A stretch of DNA of 64,000 nucleotides from Lyophyllum atratum (Eukaryota; Basidiomycota; Agaricomycetes; Agaricales; Lyophyllaceae). This document shows positions 46,121 through 58,102 of this stretch, one piece after another. The stretch is taken from assembly GCA_014905825.1 (NCBI GenBank), contig JACGCN010000035.1, positions 434,001 through 498,000 on the forward strand, in the 5' to 3' direction. The first letter of the stretch is position 1. The number at the start of each line of letters is the position of its first letter. The notes under the pieces are model-generated. The model had not been told where the DNA came from and searched no databases. It saw only the letters and a list, made by a program, of their open reading frames with translations. Position numbers and translations under genes: made by a program.

Positions 46121-46545
46121 AGGTTGGCGGGAAGGCCGTGGACAAAACGTCGCACGTTGCACAGGCCATCATTTGATCGTCTGCATCTTATCTTCCAACT
46201 GTCATCACTTCGTGCTGAATTCACTACAATACTCGCGATCTTCACTACCTTACATGCCAGCCTAGCAAGCTCTTGTATCTTATCTGCAGCTATTGAAGCA
46301 CATATCGAGAGAAGTACGTTCATCTACGCATACTAAGGTTGGCGGGAAGGCCGTGGACAAAACGTCGCACGTTGCACAGGCCATCATTTGATCGTCTGCA
46401 TCTTATCTTCCAACTGTCATCACTTCGTGCTGAATTCACTACAATACTCGCGATCTTCACTACCTTACATGCCAGCCTAGCAAGCTCTTGTATCTTATCT
46501 GCAGCTATTGAAGCACATATCGAGAGAAGTACGTTCATCTACGCA
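46121..46545. repeat. Tandem duplication, period 215 bp
   Basis: 46121-46330 and 46336-46545 are near-identical direct copies beginning AGGTTGGCGGGAAGGCCGTG, separated by TACTA. The second copy ends just before the left target duplication of the 11-kb transposon. A diverged third copy of the first ~100 bases lies inverted at about 59440-59537. Confidence 0.9.
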
Positions 46546-46555
46546 ACATAGCAGT

Positions 46556-46667
46556 ATGGCAACAGGGACTGACCAGCTCCCTAACCGACGTGCCGAGCCG
46601 TAATTTGAGCTCCGCCATCAACCAAACAAATCCACGACTCAGGACCCCGGATGTATCAATCTAATCT
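46556..46667 (+). repeat. Left terminal inverted repeat of the 11-kb element
   Basis: Starts ATGGCAACAGGGACTGACCA and ends CAATCTAATCT. Matches the complement of 57448-57559 over the full 112 bases with mismatches clustered in one 14-base window. Confidence 0.93.
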
Positions 46668-46788
46668 GCTGATCAGTCAGCCATCCCGGCCAATTCAATC
46701 GCTCAGTCAGCTACTTGAAATTTATTTTGTATTTATTGCTCCTCACAATGACATCCCCTTGTGTCTGCTCATCTCATCTGCTACTGCC

Positions 46789-49025
46789 ATGCCTGAATTT
46801 GGTGAAGGAGTCCTTGATGGTTTTCAAATCCAACATTTCCTAGAGGAAACTCCGGCAGAAGATCTCATTCTAGAGGCTGTCTGGGGTGACGCCACATCAA
46901 AGGAGAAGGGAAATCACCCACCGGGTTCTTTGGCTGCTGAAGGACATGTATACCCTGTTCCTTCCTCAACTATTGTCCAACGGGGCCTTTTCCCTCCTAA
47001 ATACCACTCCCTAGAAAATGTTCCAATCTCAAATCACAAGCTCCAACTCGTCGTAACTGAACCATCACCTCGCAATGTTATTTTGAAGTTCCGGGATGGA
47101 AATGGCGAGGATTACTGGACTCAGGTATGTCACACATTCTATCAATGCGTGTGATTCACTAATTTTCGTAAACCCTCAACTTTAGATTCAGTTATTCAAA
47201 CATACATCCGTTCAAATATACTCGAAGGAAGAATGGCATGATGCAGTTTGCAAGGTTGACAAAGATGTACGCTTTTTAACTTGGCAGGATTTCTAAATTA
47301 CTGACAGCTTGATAATAGCGCCGAGGCTTTAAAATTGGAATCGCATTCGAATTCAAGACACACGTCCTCGCGCTACCAACAAATGATCTTTTGATTCAAG
47401 TAAGTCATTGTTTTTTGCTGCTGACATGGTTCTGTTGGTCTGATATCTTCTTTTTAGGTTCATTGGGCGTACTGCCGCAAGGATTTGCCTGCACAGCAAG
47501 CAAATATTTATACCGACTATTCTGCATTTTTGGCCGAGTTAGTAGCCTGGATGCGTTTGCGGAGAGCATCGCGTTCGAACCGTACCGGCCTGGCTATGAC
47601 TGCTATCAGGAAGGAGTCGAGTATATTCTATGGAGCAGGCGTCTATACTACACAAGAGATATTCCATAAGGCTGGTGCGTCGGATTTCTTTTTCCCACCC
47701 TTGAAGCGTGCTAATTTCATATAACAGGTTTATCCCCAAATGTTACAGAGAGAGAAGTGTTTGACTGCCCATCGCGAACCGCCCGACTTGTTGCGGCCTG
47801 GTATGATCTCGCTGCAGAGATGTACGAGTCACTTTGGTACGCCTGCTGCTTCTCATTTATTTCCGATTCTAATCTCACATGCCCCAGGTCCTTTATGAAG
47901 CCGTTTTTGCGCGGATTCAAATTCGCCTGCCATCGTACAGATCGCCTGCGATATGCGGAGCGCCTGCTTGTCTATCGGAAGGACCGCACAAACCTATCAC
48001 TCCGATTTAAAGAACAACTTAATGCGTTCAAGGTAAGACTGCTTGCTCAACTTTAGTAGTATTTAATGTCCTCATCTCGCCTTCAGGTATCAAATACTGC
48101 TATGCAGGACTCTGCTGAGCTATGTCCTCGGAAGCATGGTGCGCCTGCAGTGCCTTTTGACGTGTTTGAGCCCGATCATGTCAAACGCGCCTTGATCAAC
48201 GAGAATGTCGGCCTTGGCTCGCTGATCTTTGGTAACAGTCTGTGGGAAGTCCTTCATGATAAGGCAGGACTTCCAATAGGATGTCTCACCCCCCAAAATT
48301 GCTCGTAGATTATTTCTGTGATCCATCCTGTGAGTTTTCTACGCCTTTATCATTTTCTTCCTAACTAACAGACAATTCAGTTGACCATTCAACCTGGCTC
48401 TATCCGAATGGATATAGCTTTCTGTTCAATGAAGCTGCGGGTCGCCAAGGCATGACTGCTTGGGCAAAGACCCTGTTATATAGGATTGCTAACACCCACG
48501 TATGGAACATCATTCCAACGTACCCCTGTAACTCCTGTCCGGATATGCCGCCTTCGAAATCAGTGGGGCGATCAAGCCAATCCTCAAAATTAAAGGTATC
48601 GAACTCTGATCAGGAGTCTACCAGTGTTTCACTGATAGAAGGACAAGAACGGTCGCGTCTATTGATGCGGAATGTGACCCGGCATTCAGACATCATGACT
48701 GTAGGTCCTCTTGATTTCTGTGGCACTGCAGAGATCGTCCATGGGCAAGGAGGAAAGGAACTGTGAGTACCTTGTTTCGTTCACAGGTTATTCATCTGTT
48801 CTGACTGCCGTCACCCATACCCTGCTTAGAGTTATGGTGTGCAAGCTAGACCCTCGACATTCAGCTTTGTCACTCAAAAGACAGATTCTTGGAGCAGCAG
48901 CTGCCAAGCTGAAGGGCAAGGGCCTTGATCGTATTGGGATTCGTCCGAACGAGCGGAAAAGGCTACTCAGCAGTTTAGAGGTGGCTGACTTGGCTGACCA
49001 CCGGCGAAAAAGACACCATCTATAG
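46789..49025 (+). CDS. Unrecognised transposon gene, likely frameshifted
   Basis: I do not recognise this protein. From MPEFGEGVLDGFQIQHFLEE it runs through about nine exons: HSLENVPISNHKLQLVV, IQLFKHTSVQIYSKEEWHD, FKIGIAFEFKTHVLALP, WAYCRKDLPAQQANIYTDY, NVTEREVFDCPSRTARLVAAW, HRTDRLRYAERLLVYRKD, GLGSLIFGNSLWEVLHD, WLYPNGYSFLFNEAAGRQGM and a basic end (RRKRHHL). All junctions give good GT-AG introns except near 48289-48310. There a six-C run is followed by a stop (TAG) in the current frame, while the frame one base off continues LLVDYFCDPS into the next exon. A lost base in the C run would explain this. No signal peptide or zinc motif seen. The role in the element is unknown. Confidence 0.6.
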
Positions 49026-49309
49026 CAATATTTTGTTATTTACACGTTCTAGTAATACCTCTAATGAATTATGATACTATTTTCACCTACACGCCTATGG
49101 AGCACCCTCAGAAATAGCCAGCACGGAACAACCTCATGCAACGAACCTCATGCAACTCCCTCGGGTCCCGCGGGCCCGTTCCTCCTTATTCCTACCTAGA
49201 CACTGACCCGCCTTGTTCCGGCTCCCCTCGTTCCTCCCTCATTCCTCCTCCTCCTTAGGCAGAGGAACAGCCTGAGCTGATGTCATGATTCTTCCAGGGA
49301 CCGCATTCT

Positions 49310-50235
49310 GACTGGCTTCGATCTCGACGCGAGACTCGGCGTGGGGATGGGGGCGTGGATGGGGTGTCCGGGTCGTCGTCATGAGATGGTGTTGGGATGG
49401 GGCGTGGATGGGGTGTCCTGGTCGTTGTCATGAGATGGTGGAGGTTGTGGCATGTATCTTGGGGAGGGCCGCTTTTTGTCAGCTCGGCGAGACTCGGAGA
49501 CTCGGCGTGGGGATGGGGGCGTGGATGCGGGCAGATCATGTCGGTTGAATGGTTGGCCTAGTGAGCGGGATGGGAGCTCAGGGAGTCGTCGATGGTGCTA
49601 CTCGTTGTGGGGTTGGGATTGGATGTGCTGTGGGCAGTTCAGGGCGACATAGGTGTGATAGACCTGTGGAATCAGTGGCTAGGTAGGAAGGGAAGGGAGA
49701 AGAGAGCAAGGGAGAGGATACTCACGAATTTACAATAGAGGCTGCAGGTGGCGTTGCACTCGCCTCGACGCGAGACTTGGTTGCACTCGCCTCGACTGCA
49801 CTCGCCTCGACGCGACTTGGCGAGACTCGGTGAGACTCGGCGTGGGGATGGGGGCATGGATGGGGTGTCCTGGTCGTCGTCATGAGATGGTGTTGGGATG
49901 GGGCGTGGATGGGGTGTCCTGGTCGTCGTCATGAGATGGTGGAGGTTGTGGTGGCATGTATCTTGGGGAGGGCCGCTTTTCGTCAGCAAAGCGGCGGTTC
50001 TGCAGAATACAGTGGGCATACCAAGTCGGCTCCCCCCACCAGGCGTCTGCCGTCCTTCCCTCGATGGGTGTCCTGGTCGTCGTCATGAGATGGTGGAGGT
50101 TGTGGTGGCATGTATCTTGGGGAGGGCCGCTTTTCGTCAGCGGCGGTTCTGCAGAATGCAGTGGGCATACCAAGTTGGCTCCCCCTACCAGGGGTCTGCC
50201 TTCCTCGCCGTCTCGGCATCCCTTTTTGAGGGGAG
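49310..50235. repeat. G-rich minisatellite-like array in the transposon
   Basis: Interleaved imperfect repeats. One unit contains GGGGCGTGGATGGGGTGTCC then TGGTCGTCGTCATGAGATGG. Another contains GGTTGTGGTGGCATGTATCT then TGGGGAGGGCCGCTTTTCGTC, at about 49441, 49941 and 50096. A third covers GGTTCTGCAGAATACAGTGG to ACCAGGCGTCTGCC, at about 49994 and 50145. Short GACTCGGCGAGACTCGG units surround them. The G-rich strand has many runs of three or more G. Confidence 0.8.
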
Positions 50236-50491
50236 GAGGGCGTTGTTACGTGTTTGGAAAAGAGAATAGATCTAACTTGATCAACGAAGTTATAGTTGAG
50301 AAAAGAATCGAAAGAAAACTCACCTAGAAAGAAAATTCCTGGGCATGCGCAGGACGGCCAAGTAGTGGTAGCGGATTGAGAGATGAGAGATATGCACAGC
50401 CGCAACATCTGATCTTGGGTGATGTCATTGTTATCATCCGCTATATTCACTGATCTGGCTTTCCGGGTCTCAAGACCTGAAGATTTTGAAG

Positions 50492-51136
50492 GTTTTTAAA
50501 GTTTGAGCTTGGGAATAGGACCAGTAGGCATATGCCGGCTAGCTTGCAAAAGGATATCCATTTAAAAACCACCCATTTGAAGTTATAGGTAGGACGATGG
50601 GAGAATGACCATTTTTGGGCATCAGACGGTGTACGCCTTTCCAAGTTACACCATTCCTAGTTTTTTAAAGTCTGAGCTTGGGAATAGGACCAGTAGACAT
50701 ATGCCAGCCAGCTTGCCAAAGGATATCCATTTAAAAACCACCCATTTGAAGTTATAGGTAGGACGATGGGAGAATGACCATTTTTGGGCATCAGACGGTG
50801 TACGCCTTTCCAAGTTACACCATTCCTAGTTTTTTAAAGTCTGAGCTTGGGAATAGAACCAGTAGACATATGCCAGCCAGCTTGCCAAAGGATATCCATT
50901 TAAAAACCACCCATTTGAAGTTATAGGTAGGACGATGGGAGAATGACCATTTTTGGGCATCAGACGGTGTACACCTTTCCAAGTTACACCATTCCTAGTT
51001 TTTTAAAGTCTGAGCTTGGGAATAGAACCAGTAGGCATATGCCAGCCAGCTTGCCAAAGGATATTCATTTAAAAACCACCCATTTGAAGTTATAGGTAGG
51101 ACGATGGGAGAATGACCATTTTTGGGCATCAGACGC
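50492..51136. repeat. 169-bp tandem repeat, about four copies
   Basis: Copies start near 50501, 50670, 50839 and 51008 (GTYTGAGCTTGGGAATAG...). The last is truncated after GGGCATCAGACG. Copies 2-4 are nearly identical; copy 1 is slightly more diverged. Lies between the repeat array and the alpha-kinase gene, noncoding as far as seen. Confidence 0.93.
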
Positions 51137-51400
51137 AGTATCTCAAACTAGGAGACTAGGTAATTGATGATTGACATTAAAGCATTTGAATGTATTGTAT
51201 CTAGACTGTGTTGTAGTAACAATGTGAGGTAGCTATTGGATTAGGGTTGGAGGTGGCTAGTAGATTAGGGTTTGGGACGATGGTATGAGGAGATGAAGGT
51301 AAATAAAGGAATGTTGGCCCATTCAAAAACTGAGGGGAATTGATGTAAGGTTGGATTTAGGGCTGGACGCAGAAGGAAGAACCGAAGGGTAAGGTTGGAT

Positions 51401-54400
51401 TTAGGGCTGGGCTGGACGCAGCACCGAGCCTTGTGATTCCCAGAGGTCGTAGTCAGTCGGAACCTCAAACCATTCACAGAAATAATTGCATCTGTGGTTG
51501 GGCTCAAGATTTGTATGGCCGGAGGGATGGTTGCCATCAGCGAAAATAACACCAAGGGCACTGGGGAGATAGGGCGTCAAGTTCCATGCAAATTTTCAGA
51601 TTTTTAACAGGTACCCACCTGTCGGTTATGATCTGAGGATCACTAAGCAAAGAGTTTCCCCCTATATAAAGGTATTAGATGAGTGGTAGCCGGCACTGAT
51701 ATTCCGAGCATATACCTTGGTAGTCAGATACAAACACCAGCTTCCTTGTCTTGAAGTACTGCACATGTTGACTGAAGGCGAGAAAGAGTGCGCGCTCCTG
51801 GTCTTCCTTGTCTGATAATGGAAGTGGGACTGGTGACACGTTGTTCATATACTTCCTGAAAGCCCCTTCCCTTTCGCCACCAATGACTTCTTCAAGAAGG
51901 AATACTTGACTCTCCTTAGCGCTGTCTGCATGCTCAACAGCTAGAGCGGCGTCGACGAATCTGAGCTGAGGAATATAGAAAGGTGGGGGTTTCCCTTTCG
52001 CCTGGATGCCCTTTTCGACAAAGGCATAAACAAGGTCAAGCAGCACGCGCGCCCAAGCAAGGCATGCAATCTCCATCGTTAGATTCTGGGCTTGTGTTCG
52101 TCCATCGTGTGGAATGTTCTGGGTTACCTGTATCTCTTTGCCCTTGCTTCGAACGGAGCCAGATTTCTCATAGTACGTCTGCTTTGCACAAACATCTCTG
52201 CTTTGACCAAAAAGGGGGCGGCTGGCTGTCCCAAATGACGATAGCTTGAAACCGCCTTTCTTCTGCTTCTTAGATGAAAGCTCCAGCTGCAATGTGGCTT
52301 CGCCTGGTGGTCCAAGGTATGCTTTATGGTTAACCAGGTTCTTCCCAGAGCACATCTCGAGCAGCTGGCTCAGCGTGTGATGTTCGACGGGATATATGGT
52401 AACATGAATTGCCTTTAGGTCGACTAGGAGTGCGCTTTAGTATGTTGTAAGCAATTTCTTTGGATTAAAGACATACATAATGATTGAACGTCCTTAGCTG
52501 TGGGCAGCTGCTGTGAACGGAGTGCATCCCCAAGTCTTCTTGTGGTCGGTGACAAGTCATAACTAGGACCAGCTTTGGGACGCTTCGAACTTCGCCCTGG
52601 AGTCTGTGGTGTATCCGAGACCAGGTTCGTCCTCATGTCTACGAGAACACCAGATGTGCGGTGGGTTTGCTCTGGTTCTGGTGACGGTGACCTGTAGCGT
52701 TTTTTAGTGATTTAAAGTCAGGTCAAGTCCGGTTTTTTGGCCAAATTAGGCGAGACCGGACTGTAACCGGTCACATGTGACCCCCTGGATGTCAAAAAAC
52801 TGGACTGGACTGATGGTGACCAGTCACGATCAGTCGCAATCAGTTCTATGACCAGTTATGACCGGTTTTATGAAAACCGGTCCTAAACCGGTTATAACCG
52901 GCGATAACCGGTTATACATGTAACATATAATGTAGTGTACTATTCCAGCTTCCGAATGAACCCTGGATCGTGAGATTCTGATAAGATCTGACTGAGATAT
53001 GAGCTGATTAAGATGACTAGTATAGTCTGTATCCAAACTTGATGTCCCGAAATTGTTTTGGCCATAGCACATTCAATTCTCATCTGATTTGTTTGACCCA
53101 AGGACCGATTTAAAGCCCTATGGCGGGGCTAAAAGGTGGTTCATAGTACATGTAAAAATAACCGGTCACAAACCGGTCATGACTGGTTATTTCCAGTTAC
53201 GCAGAATTTCAGATTATGAAAATAACTGGACTGGTGCACCAGTCATTCCAGGACGACTGGACTGGAAGTCCGGTCATTATCAGTCACAGATCAGTTACAG
53301 TTCAGTCATTTTCAGTCACTGTGACTGGACTTTTAAACACTAGCGTTTTTTGCCCTGTTTCTTGCCCTGAGTTCGGGTCGGTGTCATCACCTCCTGTCGC
53401 TCTGACTGCTATATTATACAGTCAATACAGCTGTAGATATGAAGACGAAGATTCACGAACCTTTGCAACCTGAGCATGCAACCGCTCCTCCTCCCTCTGC
53501 TCGCTCCAGGTCAAATACTGATTGTAAATGGGATTCGGGACATGGAAGTTGATGATGCATCGACCCTCTTTGAATACTTGACCACCCTTGGCAGTCTTGA
53601 AGAATGGCTTCGAGATCACATCACGATCTGGAGTATTTGATTTAATCCTTGCTCCATCTTTATCTCGCATGACAAAGTCATGGATACTGATGTGAAACCC
53701 CTCCGTGTATTCTTGCCAAGAAGGTAAGATCTCATCATATAAAATCTTCTTCAGCTCCGTCGCCCCGATATGAACAGGAATGTTATTGACGGCCTCGACA
53801 ATGTCCTATCACATATTGAGTCCAAGCACTTAGTCTGGAGATTTGAAAACGTACCCCGACTAATAAAAACTTGACTCCCCCAATGGGCTTGCGAACAGCC
53901 CGGACTTCGACGGTTACAACATTGCCGCCATTGGTGGAGAATGCCTTCTGGGCCAGTGATTGTGTGGCATACGCCTTTTGCGCCAGTGATTGTCGTGTCG
54001 CATGGTACACAGCATGATTGCCTGTATACCCAGAACCCCCCTGTGGTCCAGAATGAGAACTTGCTGATATCTGGCCCATACTGAATTGGGGAACAAAACC
54101 AGGTAGCTGCACTGAGGGCCCAGCTGGGGCTGCCATGCGCATCGGACCATTTGACGTCCCGATGACATAGCCTGCCTGAAACGATGGCACATATGCAGTG
54201 GGGCCTACTGCTTGGACCACATTTGTTACTTCTATACCCGGCCCTGAGCAATCCATGTCAAGAAACATATGAGGGCAGACTCACGACCTCTTTGCGCACT
54301 CGAAATTTGTCTATGAATTTCCTTCTGATGATCCGCTCTGGGTAAAGCCATAGACGTCCTGCGTACTGTCGTCTTCTTCTGCATGTAGTACTGATAGCAC

Positions 54401-54567
54401 CCCAAGCAGAGCATCCTGCCAGGCTCATTGGGGTTGTTGCTGTGAAGGAAGTGCAACTTTGTGCCTGCCGGAAATGTCGCCGTGCATGATTCGCGCGCAC
54501 AGTGTACCACAGCAGTGTTGTCAACGCCAGTAAAGTCAGCAGCATACTGGGTGGTCTCTTCAGACAT
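51401..54567 (-). pseudogene. Alpha-type protein kinase, split by a hAT element
   Basis: Atypical (alpha-kinase/EF2-kinase fold) Ser/Thr kinase. Exon 1 (MSEETTQYAADFTGV) has a Cys-rich zinc-binding-like stretch (CARESC, CLGCYQYYM). Middle exons hold a Gln/Ala/Gly-rich region and a conserved linker (ISIHDFVMRDKDGARI, EGRCIINFHVPNPIYNQYL). The kinase domain reads KAYLGPPGEATLQLELS, AKQTYYEKSG, MEIACLAWARVLLDLVYAF, VFLLEEVI, KYMNNVSPVP, LAFSQHVQYFKTRKLVFVSDYQG, GNSLLSDPQIITDR, FADGNHPSGHTNLEPNHRCN and YFCEWFEVP. This is the expected order, including the C-terminal GxN and HxCNxFC-type zinc site. A 638-bp hAT-like element (52705-53342) sits inside the exon that encodes GKKQGKK followed by SPSPEPEQ; one copy of its duplication is part of the original frame. 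Function is presumably lost unless the insert is spliced out. Confidence 0.82.
52705..53342. mobile_element. Non-autonomous hAT-like element in kinase exon
   Basis: 638 bp with 15-bp inverted ends (TAGTGATTTAAAGTC versus TAGTGTTTAAAAGTC, 13 of 15 match) and exact 8-bp direct copies GCGTTTTT at 52697-52704 and 53343-53350. The interior is packed with ACCGGT, AACCGG and CCAGTC/GACTGG motifs on both strands. No transposase frame. Its ends resemble those of the element at 55082 (both continue GTCCGGT), so the two are relatives. Confidence 0.85.
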
Positions 54568-54689
54568 GACCAAAGAACAAATGGTGACGGAGGAGGCGCG
54601 TGAGTTGGCAAGCAGCGGAGGTTTAGAACATGGCAAAAAGAGTCAAATTTGCAATCGAGAATGTGACAAGTGTGATATTAAGAAATTGG

Positions 54690-57079
54690 CTAATCACTGA
54701 AGTCCGCATATTCTCGGAGGTCGATGTTGCTCTCGTCCTCACTCCCATCGTCTCCACCATCTACAAGTCCTGCAGGTAAAACAGGATCATCTAAGCCACC
54801 CATGTATACATAACCATATGGCCCCACGACGTTATCACCGTGTCGCAGCTCCCGGAGGCCAGCCATGACAGGCACATCATGCTCCTCACCTTGATCTGCC
54901 ATAAGCAGGGCAGCTGCGAAGGCAGGATCATGAGGAAGTGCAAGAAATGCCTCCAACAAATCTGAATACACGGCCCAGAATGTGAGAGATGATACTGCAG
55001 GACTTCCAATAGACACATATAAGGCCGAGGCTTGTTCACCAAAAGTTGGTGGTACGAGCTGGAAAACAGGGTCATCAGGGGTAGTGTTTTAAAGTCGTGT
55101 CGGGTCCGGTCTTTCGACCGTTTTTTCAGCAACCGCAACCGCAACCGGTTGCTGCACATTCCCAAATGTAGCAACCACGACTGCAACCAGTTGCAACCGG
55201 TTGCAACCGAGTTGCAACTGATTTAGATGAATTACGATGAATTAACGCGTATTTACATGTAAATTGCTTATTTATTGCGCATTTTCGACTAAAAGCACTA
55301 AAGTTCACCTCTGACCATTGCTACAGGCAGTTTTGCATATCTTTCACGGTGATTTGCACTCTTGGATCTCCTAAAATGGCCAAGAATTGACAAAGATATG
55401 ACTAAAATAGTGCATGGATGTCATTTTGGACCATGCCAATACTATTTTGATTATAACTTCTTCAGTTCTCAACCGTTTTTGATCATCCAGGAGTCAATTT
55501 CAAGCGTTTTTGAAGGGCTATCTGCTGCCCGGAACCCCCGGGCCGCGACCGGTCGCAACCGGTTGCTAGCAGTCTTTGTACTTATTTCAAATCCTAGCAA
55601 CTGCAACCTGAAGTCGTAGCAACCGCGGTTGCAGTCCGGTCTTTTTGCGGTCTTTTGCGGTTGCTGCGACCCGACCTCCTAACACTAATCAGGGGGAGCC
55701 CACTCCTTTTCCACCTCGTCAAAGAGTTCTGGAGATATCACAACCTTGAGAAACTGCATTCAGGAGATGTGTGGTGTAGAACTTGGCATGAAACCTACCA
55801 TGAAGTTTTTGGACCCATTGAACTGGTGAGGCTTTGCGTGAATCAAATCAGGAATTCCATGTGGCAAAATTTTGTGCTTGTCGGCGCGGCGAGGACTGGA
55901 GTTGTACCGCGAGGTCCAAAGGTCAAGCTCTGCCTGCAGCCAAGGGATGGCTAGCCATCGAAACACAAGCCTGATAAGCCAAAATCAGCGACATATAATA
56001 TCTAAAATGATATCCGTACTTTTCAATTGGGTCATTAGGGTCATACCATCCATTATTCAAGCCTTCATCCAGGATGTTCTCAAAGCCAGGCGTCCACTGG
56101 TGCCGAAGCTGTGACCAAAGTGCCTCGGGCTTGATATTTTTCTTGTCAATACACCATCGATGCTGCAACGTATCGCTCAGGCTGGGGTCTAAACGGTGGC
56201 GAAGTGAGGTGTGCATGTTTGCCACACCGTTGTTCTCCTTTCCACGATCACTTTGAGTGATGAGGGGAATGCCTGACGCAAAAGGGTAATGATGGAACTG
56301 AAGAGCTATTCAGCAAGAGACCCACCGCCAACCTTACGTCCTGCAGAAATGTAGTAGCCATTGATAAGATGTGTGTTCCGGTCACACCACCAGATTTTCA
56401 GCCAAGCCACCCGACCAGGATAAGGATCTATCGAACAATGCATCCACAATCCAAACCTCTGCCATTTATCGTGTTGATCAATGGCCCATATATCCATGAC
56501 ACCAGCGGCCCAAAACCGTTTCCGCCGGAATTTCTGAGACTTGCGCGCAGCTACAGCATCTGGCTCCGTCTCCTTAAAGAAGTCTAACAGCTGCTGCCTG
56601 TGTAACGGGTTAATGAAGATCGGTTCATGTGCATATCCTACTCACTCGGGAACCTTCAATTCATAATCTTGACGTAGTAGAGTTACCATCCCGCGAGCTC
56701 CCATTGTGGGAAATCGTGTCCGTATTTTGTCTACAAGCGGCTTGATATCCTCAAAAGATGTGGTCTGTTGGCGAGCACCCTTAAGTCCCAACTTTGTGCG
56801 AAGTCGTCTCAGCGATGTTATACTAAAAGTAGTGGTTCAGCCCAGGTGGCCATGCCAGCTGTCAGCGTCACTCACCTGAAACCGTACTGTGCCTTGTCAA
56901 AGTGATCAAGTACATGCTCGACAATCTTTTTCTCTGACAAACCAAGGCGCCAATAGTACCGAACCCACTTATGAAGTTCTTCCTCTGGCGCTGCTACACA
57001 TTCAGAACTATTAGTACCAGGTATTCATAGCAATAGTGCACAACATACGAATTGGCTTGTGTTGATTAGGCTTAGGCAT
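54690..57079 (-). pseudogene. Integrase-core (DDE) transposase, split by a hAT element
   Basis: Likely transposase of the 11-kb element. Start MPKPNQHKPI, then a helical N-terminal region (EEELHKWVRYYWRLG, EKKIVEHVLDHFDKAQYGF, ITSLRRLRTKLGLKGARQQT, RTRFPTMGARGMVTLLRQDY) as in fungal integrase-core proteins. The RNase H-fold core follows: RRKRFWAAGVMDIWAIDQHD with catalytic Asp, WLKIWWCDRNTHLINGYYI and IPLITQSDRGKENNGVAN with the second Asp. TSLRHRLDPSLSDTLQHRW, WTPGFENILDEGLNNGWYD and RWLAIPWLQAELDLWTSRYN come next; the third acid is not assigned with certainty. The frame continues to EYADFSD. A 606-bp element (55082-55687) interrupts the codons for EWAPPD and DPVFQL; without it and one duplication copy the frame is continuous. 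Thus the copy is probably inactive now. Confidence 0.8.
55082..55687. mobile_element. Non-autonomous hAT-like element in transposase exon
   Basis: 606 bp, ends TAGTGTT(TTAAAGTCG) and, inverted, TAGTGTT(AGGAGGTCG), flanked by exact 8-bp direct copies ATCAGGGG at 55074-55081 and 55688-55695. Subterminal arrays of GCAACCGCAACC and AACCGGTTGC occur at both sides. No transposase frame. Ends are similar to those of the element at 52705. Confidence 0.85.
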
Positions 57080-57447
57080 GGGTCCCCTTTGTCGAAGACC
57101 AAGAACCCTACCACTGACTAATCAACAAGATATAGTAAATGGCCACGCGGTGGGGGTGCACCCAGCAGCGTGTATGATGGACAATTTCCATGATGAAATT
57201 ATGCTGCACACATGCCTTCAATGAGGCACTAGTAACATACATGTGTTGGCGTTCTCTGAATCTATTTCTGAATTCTGAAATACAGCAGATGCTCCGAGAT
57301 GAAAAGACCAGCCCACTCTAAGATAAACAGATTGATACAACTGTAAGTAAAGTACTCAACCCGGCTTCAGAAACTTGCAGAGATTGTCACTGGTGTTGTG
57401 CAGAATACTTGGCGGTGGGTGGGAGGAGACAGAAATACGGTGAGGAG

Positions 57448-57559
57448 AGATTAGATTGATACATCCGGGGTCCTGAGTCGTGGATTTGTTTGGTTGATGG
57501 CGGAGCTCAAATTACGGCTTTGACCGTTGGTTAGGGAGCTGGTCAGTCCCTGTTGCCAT
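57448..57559 (-). repeat. Right terminal inverted repeat of the 11-kb element
   Basis: Complement of the left terminal repeat, ending CCTGTTGCCAT directly before the second ATAGCAGT copy (57560-57567). Confidence 0.93.
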
Positions 57560-58102
57560 ATAGCAGTCTGGTACAAGGGTTTTGGTGCTTATTCTCGTCT
57601 GCCACACTCTTTCTGTAGCCGGGAACAGCGTCCGTAGTCGATGGTAGGCTATAGCTGTTTTTGCATGCCTAAAACCCGTGAAATACATCAGGTGACAGGT
57701 GTATCCAACAAGACGGTGCATGTTGATTTATCATACTCCACTACATAGAGACGGCGCTCTCGTGGCATGTCGCCCTTGCTGAGTAACACCAGCAAGATGG
57801 GCCGTACCATGTCATTAGAAAGTTAACGAGGTAATGCGGGGGGAAGAAAGTCGAGTCCCGTGTTTGGCTCACCGGCAGTCTAAGTTACGGGAGTGCAGGA
57901 CAACGCAAGTTATCTGCTCCCGCTATGAGCCAGAATAGATCTACACTGACTCATGAGACTCTTGTACAAAAAAAAAATACAGAATATCTCCAACTGTGGC
58001 GAGTTACATGATGATGATCAGCGGCGAGTGGCGTATGGGGTTGAATGGCCCGAAATCGGTGTAGGTGTAGCATAGAAGTGTGTAGTAACAGTAAATTTTA
58101 GC

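Follow-up and report, generated by a model that had tools for sequence, protein, structure and literature searches.

The window analysed here, a stretch of 64,000 nt from the agaric Lyophyllum atratum (assembly GCA_014905825.1, contig JACGCN010000035.1, positions 434,001 to 498,000), contains an element of about 11 kb whose sequence is best read as that of an IS3EU DNA transposon. Besides a DDE transposase, this element carries an alpha-kinase gene and a third gene, hereafter gene 1, whose product is predicted to be a divergent member of the Fpg/Nei family of DNA glycosylases. With moderate confidence, the whole can be explained as an IS3EU transposon with two cargo genes, an alpha-kinase and a predicted Fpg/Nei glycosylase, the latter of which would act against silencing by methylation. 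Coordinates given without a contig are those of the window; the genome comprises 64.8 Mb in 151 contigs, and all locus counts for elements in it are lower bounds.

Boundaries of the element and target-site duplication

The element and its three genes are delimited as follows, the transposase and kinase models having been built from another copy, C65, which is free of two small inserts found in the window copy, and then mapped to the window.

46549..46554, left copy of the target-site duplication, TAGCAG (from comparison of copies; a single copy at the empty site)
46555-57560, whole element, ~11 kb, three genes between inverted ends
46555..46667, + strand, left terminal inverted repeat, 113 bp, starting with TATGGC
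46789..49025, + strand, gene 1, candidate Fpg/Nei-like DNA glycosylase, predicted start MPEFGE (exon model approximate)
51401..54567, - strand, alpha-kinase gene whose N-terminal region contains cysteine (C65 model)
54690..57079, - strand, IS3EU-type DDE transposase gene with an integrase core (C65 model)
57448..57560, - strand, right terminal inverted repeat, ending with GCCATA
57561..57566, right copy of the target-site duplication, TAGCAG (from comparison of copies)

The initial annotation had proposed a DNA transposon with three genes, including an integrase-core DDE protein, and this description holds. Its inverted ends are also real, at a length of 113 bp and with a start at TATGG rather than the 112 bp given there: the two ends are complementary at 108 of 113 positions, and the same end is present at at least seven loci of the genome, more than chance would give. 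Exact 6-bp duplications flank six of these loci, namely TAGCAG (window), CAAGAT (C65), GTTTCG (C80), GTCCAG (C108), ATCCTC (C1:3405k) and CATGCC (C102), while at the seventh, C2:842578, the right end is altered and a duplication is missing. When all 12 copies with checked ends are considered (seven bounded elements and five short copies), an exact 6-bp duplication is found in 11, and TATGG..CCATA at both ends likewise in 11, C2 being the exception. The 8-bp target duplication previously reported must therefore be shortened to 6 bp, as an 8-bp match is seen only at the window among the seven loci; it was obtained by adding the element's terminal T/A and two flanking bases that agree by chance.

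The joined flanks of the window element match C119:1612459-1612754 at 93% without interruption and with one TAGCAG; a second match lies on C150 (83%). The C119 match is a paralogous empty site, so the element has inserted into repeated sequence. The left flank is itself repeated sequence, and a 31-bp exact direct repeat (46300-46330 and 46515-46545, 215 bp apart) lies beside the left end.

Transposase and assignment to IS3EU

The transposase model (473 aa) matches PF24764 with an E-value of 6.8e-6 and 26.4 bits, for a cut-off of 26. It displays the motifs DQHDKW, TQSDRGKEN and NIKPEALWS, and DDE motifs are found in six models. Ahead of the first catalytic Asp, neither the window-type model nor the database proteins P0004 and P0005 have a cysteine, so that no HHCC zinc motif precedes the core. 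The TA..TA termini, the 6-bp duplication and the DDE core without preceding HHCC are all features of IS3EU, whose TET-carrying families have ends of the type TAYGG..CCRTA. In the passages cited here, IS3EU/GingerRoot elements are described as having TA..TA termini, usually 6-bp duplications and no HHCC before the DDE core (Kojima 2023, PMC10045372), three features shared by the element of the window; an alpha-kinase is found here, whereas that paper mentions no kinase (0 occurrences of the word).

The closest published counterparts are IS3EU families with a TET gene (TET+), known from rust fungi and Tuber, for which the relevant sections of Kojima 2025 (PMC12730594) report a transposase, an alpha-kinase, 6-bp duplications and TAYGG..CCRTA ends. 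All these characters recur here, as does the presence of an accessory DNA-modification gene. The two groups differ in that an Fpg/Nei-like gene replaces TET in five of the seven bounded elements described below and in that the host is an agaric, section 3.2 of the same paper giving no TET+ IS3EU for Agaricomycotina. They also differ in layout: in the TET+ families described there, a TET/JBP gene lies between a transposase and an alpha-kinase of opposite orientation, whereas in the window element these two genes are adjacent and read in the same direction, with no TET match in Pfam. Within the sections cited, IS3EU elements with an alpha-kinase are already in print for TET-carrying families, and the earlier statement that no named superfamily pairs such a transposase with a kinase does not stand.

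It is very improbable that the element represents a new superfamily. The PF24764 match lies just above the cut-off, and IS3EU membership was assigned by comparison with published descriptions; the ends, the duplication length and the transposase-kinase pairing nevertheless agree with the TET+ IS3EU elements in the published passages (PMC12730594), in view of which this alternative was set aside. Membership in hAT or in Kyakuja and Zisupton (KDZ) was rejected after comparison of copies, the duplication being of 6 bp and not 7–8 bp. The KDZ elements of Agaricomycetes that carry TET, as presented in the same source, are also agaric DNA transposons with a DNA-modification gene, but they have 7- or 8-bp duplications and a different transposase; the window element is not one of them.

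Copies and families in the genome

Two of the seven loci with window-type ends are full elements, the window copy and C65:501487-533886, which are 96.7–99.8% identical across their aligned parts. The C65 copy is split by two inserts of ~11 kb, one of which (10,987 bp) has identical 205-bp ends and is consequently taken to be an LTR element. Four other loci hold derivatives of ~3 kb, in which the two ends are preserved together with the beginning of gene 1 and the central tandem repeats; in each of them, 1.0–1.8 kb between the matched parts finds no DNA match in the window element. One locus is a 183-bp stub. The repeats concerned are located in the window at:

50490..51135, non-coding tandem repeats with a 169-bp period, also retained in the ~3-kb derivatives

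Window-type ends without transposase and kinase, which the initial annotation would have counted against its proposal, literally occur at five of the seven loci; they belong to short derivatives of the same element.

A search with a 128-aa piece of the transposase gave seven loci, and every one proved to be a bounded element that holds a kinase match and is flanked by an exact 6-bp duplication. Besides the window and C65 copies, these are:

C71:457882-479133, C71 element, duplication CAATTT
C64:2906616-2917819, C64a element, duplication ACTGGT
C64:3146151-3157403, C64b element, duplication CGATCC
C1:3381062-3392303, C1 element, duplication CGCATG
C86:1113957-1138932, C86 element, duplication GCTTCC

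An eighth locus, C60:752014-753284, contains fragments of transposase and kinase. The seven bounded elements form four families whose transposases are 36–63% identical to one another. The transposase and the kinase have the same direction in the window family, are divergent in C64a and C71 and are convergent in C1. Gene 1 is found in five elements (window, C65, C71, C64a and C64b).

Two features of individual elements can be added. The C1 element has long inverted arms of 161-bp tandem repeats inside its ends (C1:3381534-3383152 and C1:3390911-3391897). The flanks of C64a (C64:2906610-2906615 and C64:2917820-2917825), once joined, seem on inspection by eye to form one open frame, and this element may sit in a host gene.

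The window copy is itself damaged, which had escaped the initial annotation. Two hAT-like inserts of ~0.6 kb each are present:

52705..53342, hAT-like insert, TAGTG..CACTA, 8-bp duplication GCGTTTTT, within a kinase exon, absent from C65
55082..55687, hAT-like insert, TAGTG..CACTA, 8-bp duplication ATCAGGGG, in the final transposase exon, absent from C65

Comparison with relatives also points to a probable frameshift in gene 1 near 48.3 kb. Owing to these three lesions, the window copy is probably inactive; copies free of its defects exist.

The alpha-kinase

The kinase model (733 aa, from C65) matches PF02816 above the cut-off (2e-14, profile positions 70–185 of 185). Its predicted structure includes the whole kinase-domain fold and the C-terminal HxCNxxC motif, and all 40 of its 40 Foldseek matches at E<=0.001 are alpha-kinases; the mean pLDDT is 53, with confidence mainly in the kinase part. 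The full-length alpha-kinase domain recognized from the start is therefore supported. The motifs SDxQG, DPQIxT, xDGN and HxCNxxC are retained in the window type, C64b and C1, while the C64a model has SDFQG and has lost the three others with its 3' end.

The association of kinase and transposase, which had been expected to recur in other copies, is indeed seen in all seven bounded elements and among database homologues of the kinase: of 18 homologues, six are predicted proteins in which a transposase segment is also present (P0002, P0003, P0004, P0005, P0014 and P0015). P0003 is the C65 copy of the host itself, and the other five come from Crassisporium, Tricholomella, Tricholoma, Amanita and Arthromyces. 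A genuine transposase-kinase fusion protein was considered and set aside, since the junctions differ between the six proteins and a stop separates the two genes in the window; the fusions are probable annotation artefacts.

The kinase and gene 1 might have been host genes caught by chance, without function for the element. The relevant passages of Kojima 2025 (PMC12730594) report repeated capture of TET genes by fungal DNA transposons, but the kinase occurs in all seven elements and gene 1 in five, across divergent families, and the catalytic motifs of the kinase are retained in three of the four families, whereas in the C64a model they are lost at the 3' end. Mere passengers are accordingly a far-fetched explanation.

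The kinase of the window element is 89% identical to that of Crassisporium, a fungus of a different suborder (Agaricineae; P0002), and only 66% identical to that of Tricholomella, which belongs to the family of the host; gene 1 is 83% identical to the Crassisporium protein P0019. Judging from these identities, horizontal transfer is possible, unless different subfamilies are being compared.

Gene 1, a candidate Fpg/Nei-like glycosylase

Gene 1 was modelled from the window copy (589 aa) and its family was reached via the fold, then by profile comparison. The predicted structure adopts the Fpg/Nei fold, with ~11% identity in the fold alignment (VIA-align search, covering the model to about residue 489). 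The profile alignment to Fpg/Nei, which includes the helix-two-turn-helix (H2TH), scores 44.1, compared with at most 25.9 for controls. An MPExxE N-terminus is found in 15 of 18 gene-1 proteins, the exceptions being P0028, which has MPK, and two proteins whose start is missing or different, P0020 and P0031; it is also present in the C64a and C64b models, downstream of the start chosen by the gene model. The H2TH-like motif GxGxY[ST]xxE occurs in 16 of the 18, and two cysteines are invariant in the family. Gene 1 has in common with the Fpg/Nei glycosylases (MutM, Nei, NEIL1-3) the fold, the MPE N-terminus, the H2TH-like motif and a VYGR-like segment; it differs from them by large insertions, by a finger region that is not confidently matched and by its location on a transposon.

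Several results weigh against this identification. Gene 1 has no Pfam match (none of 14 members at E <= 1), and a profile search of PDB with it gave no sequence match. Only the best of its five structural models reaches a pLDDT of 75, the four others lying at 54–66. The hhalign probability for gene 1 against Fpg/Nei is 63.8 over 78 columns, and falls to 10.5 (E 0.003) with three Fpg sequences. Neither a counterpart of the pocket lysine of Fpg nor one of a complete zinc finger was identified in the model, whose C-terminal part is of low confidence. Fold and family features together nevertheless make membership of gene 1, as a divergent protein, in the Fpg/Nei family well supported at the level of models, and its fold and N-terminus suggest that it would be a glycosylase/AP-lyase.

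Alternatively, the Fpg/Nei fold might have been kept only for DNA binding, with a protein inactive as a glycosylase that helps the transposase to pair or process the ends. H2TH is a DNA-binding motif, and the strong divergence of gene 1, its large insertions and its lack of a Pfam match would all fit. Such a role is rather unlikely, as the catalytic MPExxE, needless for binding, is retained in 15 of 18 proteins and as the family of C1 and C86 has no gene-1 match.

A TET-like frame in a sister element and a model for the role of gene 1

The C1 element has the layout of TET+ IS3EU: TET-like frames (C1:3385614-3387330) lie between its transposase and its kinase, at the place where the cited passages of Kojima 2025 (PMC12730594) locate TET in IS3EU. 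According to section 4.2 of that paper, TET genes on fungal transposons, IS3EU included, are proposed to counter methylation, and NEIL1 excises 5-carboxylcytosine and not 5-formylcytosine in the work cited for it (PMC5566547). Put together, these data suggest two alternative cargoes for one kind of element, an oxidiser or an excision enzyme.

The following model can be drawn. The DDE transposase, whose role is deduced from its family, would excise the element at its TATGG..CCATA ends, and insertion would occur by a 6-bp staggered cut, as the anatomy and the paralogous empty site indicate. The alpha-kinase and gene 1 travel with it as accessory genes. The gene-1 product would most likely excise a modified cytosine (e.g. 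5-carboxylcytosine) or another damaged base from the DNA of the element; base-excision repair would then restore cytosine and the element would escape methylation-based silencing, a role identical to that proposed for the TET gene carried by IS3EU elements of rusts. The kinase might have a regulatory action on the transposase or on silencing proteins of the host, which is a guess. That the substrate of gene 1 is a modified cytosine is speculative and is proposed tentatively. The broader idea, that the glycosylase of agaric IS3EU removes modified cytosines and that transposons supply both the TET and the glycosylase halves as interchangeable cargo, is conceivable and should be taken with the same reserve.

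Some observations temper this model. All three genes are damaged in the window copy. A gene-1 match was sought in the C1 and C86 elements and none was found. The C1 frame lies under both Pfam cut-offs (PF13640, 2OG-Fe(II), E 0.0083; Tet_JBP, PF12851, E 0.14).

Oxidised bases are the main repair substrates of known Fpg/Nei enzymes, and an active gene-1 glycosylase might likewise serve repair, of oxidised or deaminated bases or of transposition gaps, rather than act on methylation marks. C-to-T hypermutation, which affects the transposons of some fungi and is discussed in the passages used of Kojima 2025 (PMC12730594), would fit this, but it is undetected in Agaricomycotina according to work cited there, and the TET-like frame of the sister family points, weakly, to cytosine marks. 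A repair function is on the whole doubtful, and the model of an IS3EU cargo directed against methylation is retained.

IS3EU and the alpha-kinases of the genome

A six-frame Pfam search of the genome gave 14 alpha-kinase matches. Two are located in bounded IS3EU elements (C1 and C86:1131096); the census missed five further IS3EU kinases (window, C65, C71, C64a and C64b). One match, C64:634960, shares 55% identity with the C1 kinase and has no transposase match nearby. It and C64:621173 are kinase-domain matches of opposite orientation, ~14 kb apart, neither with a transposase match nearby. Seven matches belong to a second multicopy family (C93:245590-252475, C2:508645-515477, C86:1864306 and four C46 loci). 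The C46 loci are ~22 kb apart and 99.8–99.97% alike; the C93, C2 and C86 copies are 92–97% alike over their longest shared stretches and ~94% like those of C46. Two copies read with their flanks share a ~6.9-kb block at 93.8%, and no inverted ends were found in the pieces read. For the last four (C79, C141, C98 and C90), comparison with the IS3EU kinases gave nothing at E 0.01.

The initial annotation had seen in transposition a mechanism for alpha-kinase expansion. This finds only partial support. Some kinases are indeed carried by IS3EU, but seven of the 14 matches belong to the second family, whose two copies read with flanks lie in a duplicated block of ~7 kb where no inverted ends were found; a purely transposon-driven expansion is unsupported. 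The census rather indicates that the additional alpha-kinases of this genome have at least two sources, IS3EU being one of them. The literature search retrieved nothing on alpha-kinase expansion in Agaricomycetes and only an expansion in rusts (as stated in the part of PMC4469406 consulted), alpha-kinase also appearing in a domain table of PMC5295586; no link between IS3EU and alpha-kinase expansion was found in open-licence literature.

Significance

No report of a glycosylase on an IS3EU-like transposon was found in open-licence literature. The element shows that some alpha-kinases of Lyophyllum atratum are transposon cargo. A transposon-borne Fpg/Nei-like protein with a catalytic N-terminus is a concrete candidate that can be tested with one purified protein. 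If the proposed role is true, the anti-silencing genes of transposons would extend from oxidation (TET) to base excision, and gene 1 would be a candidate for the excision step, which is still to be found in fungi.
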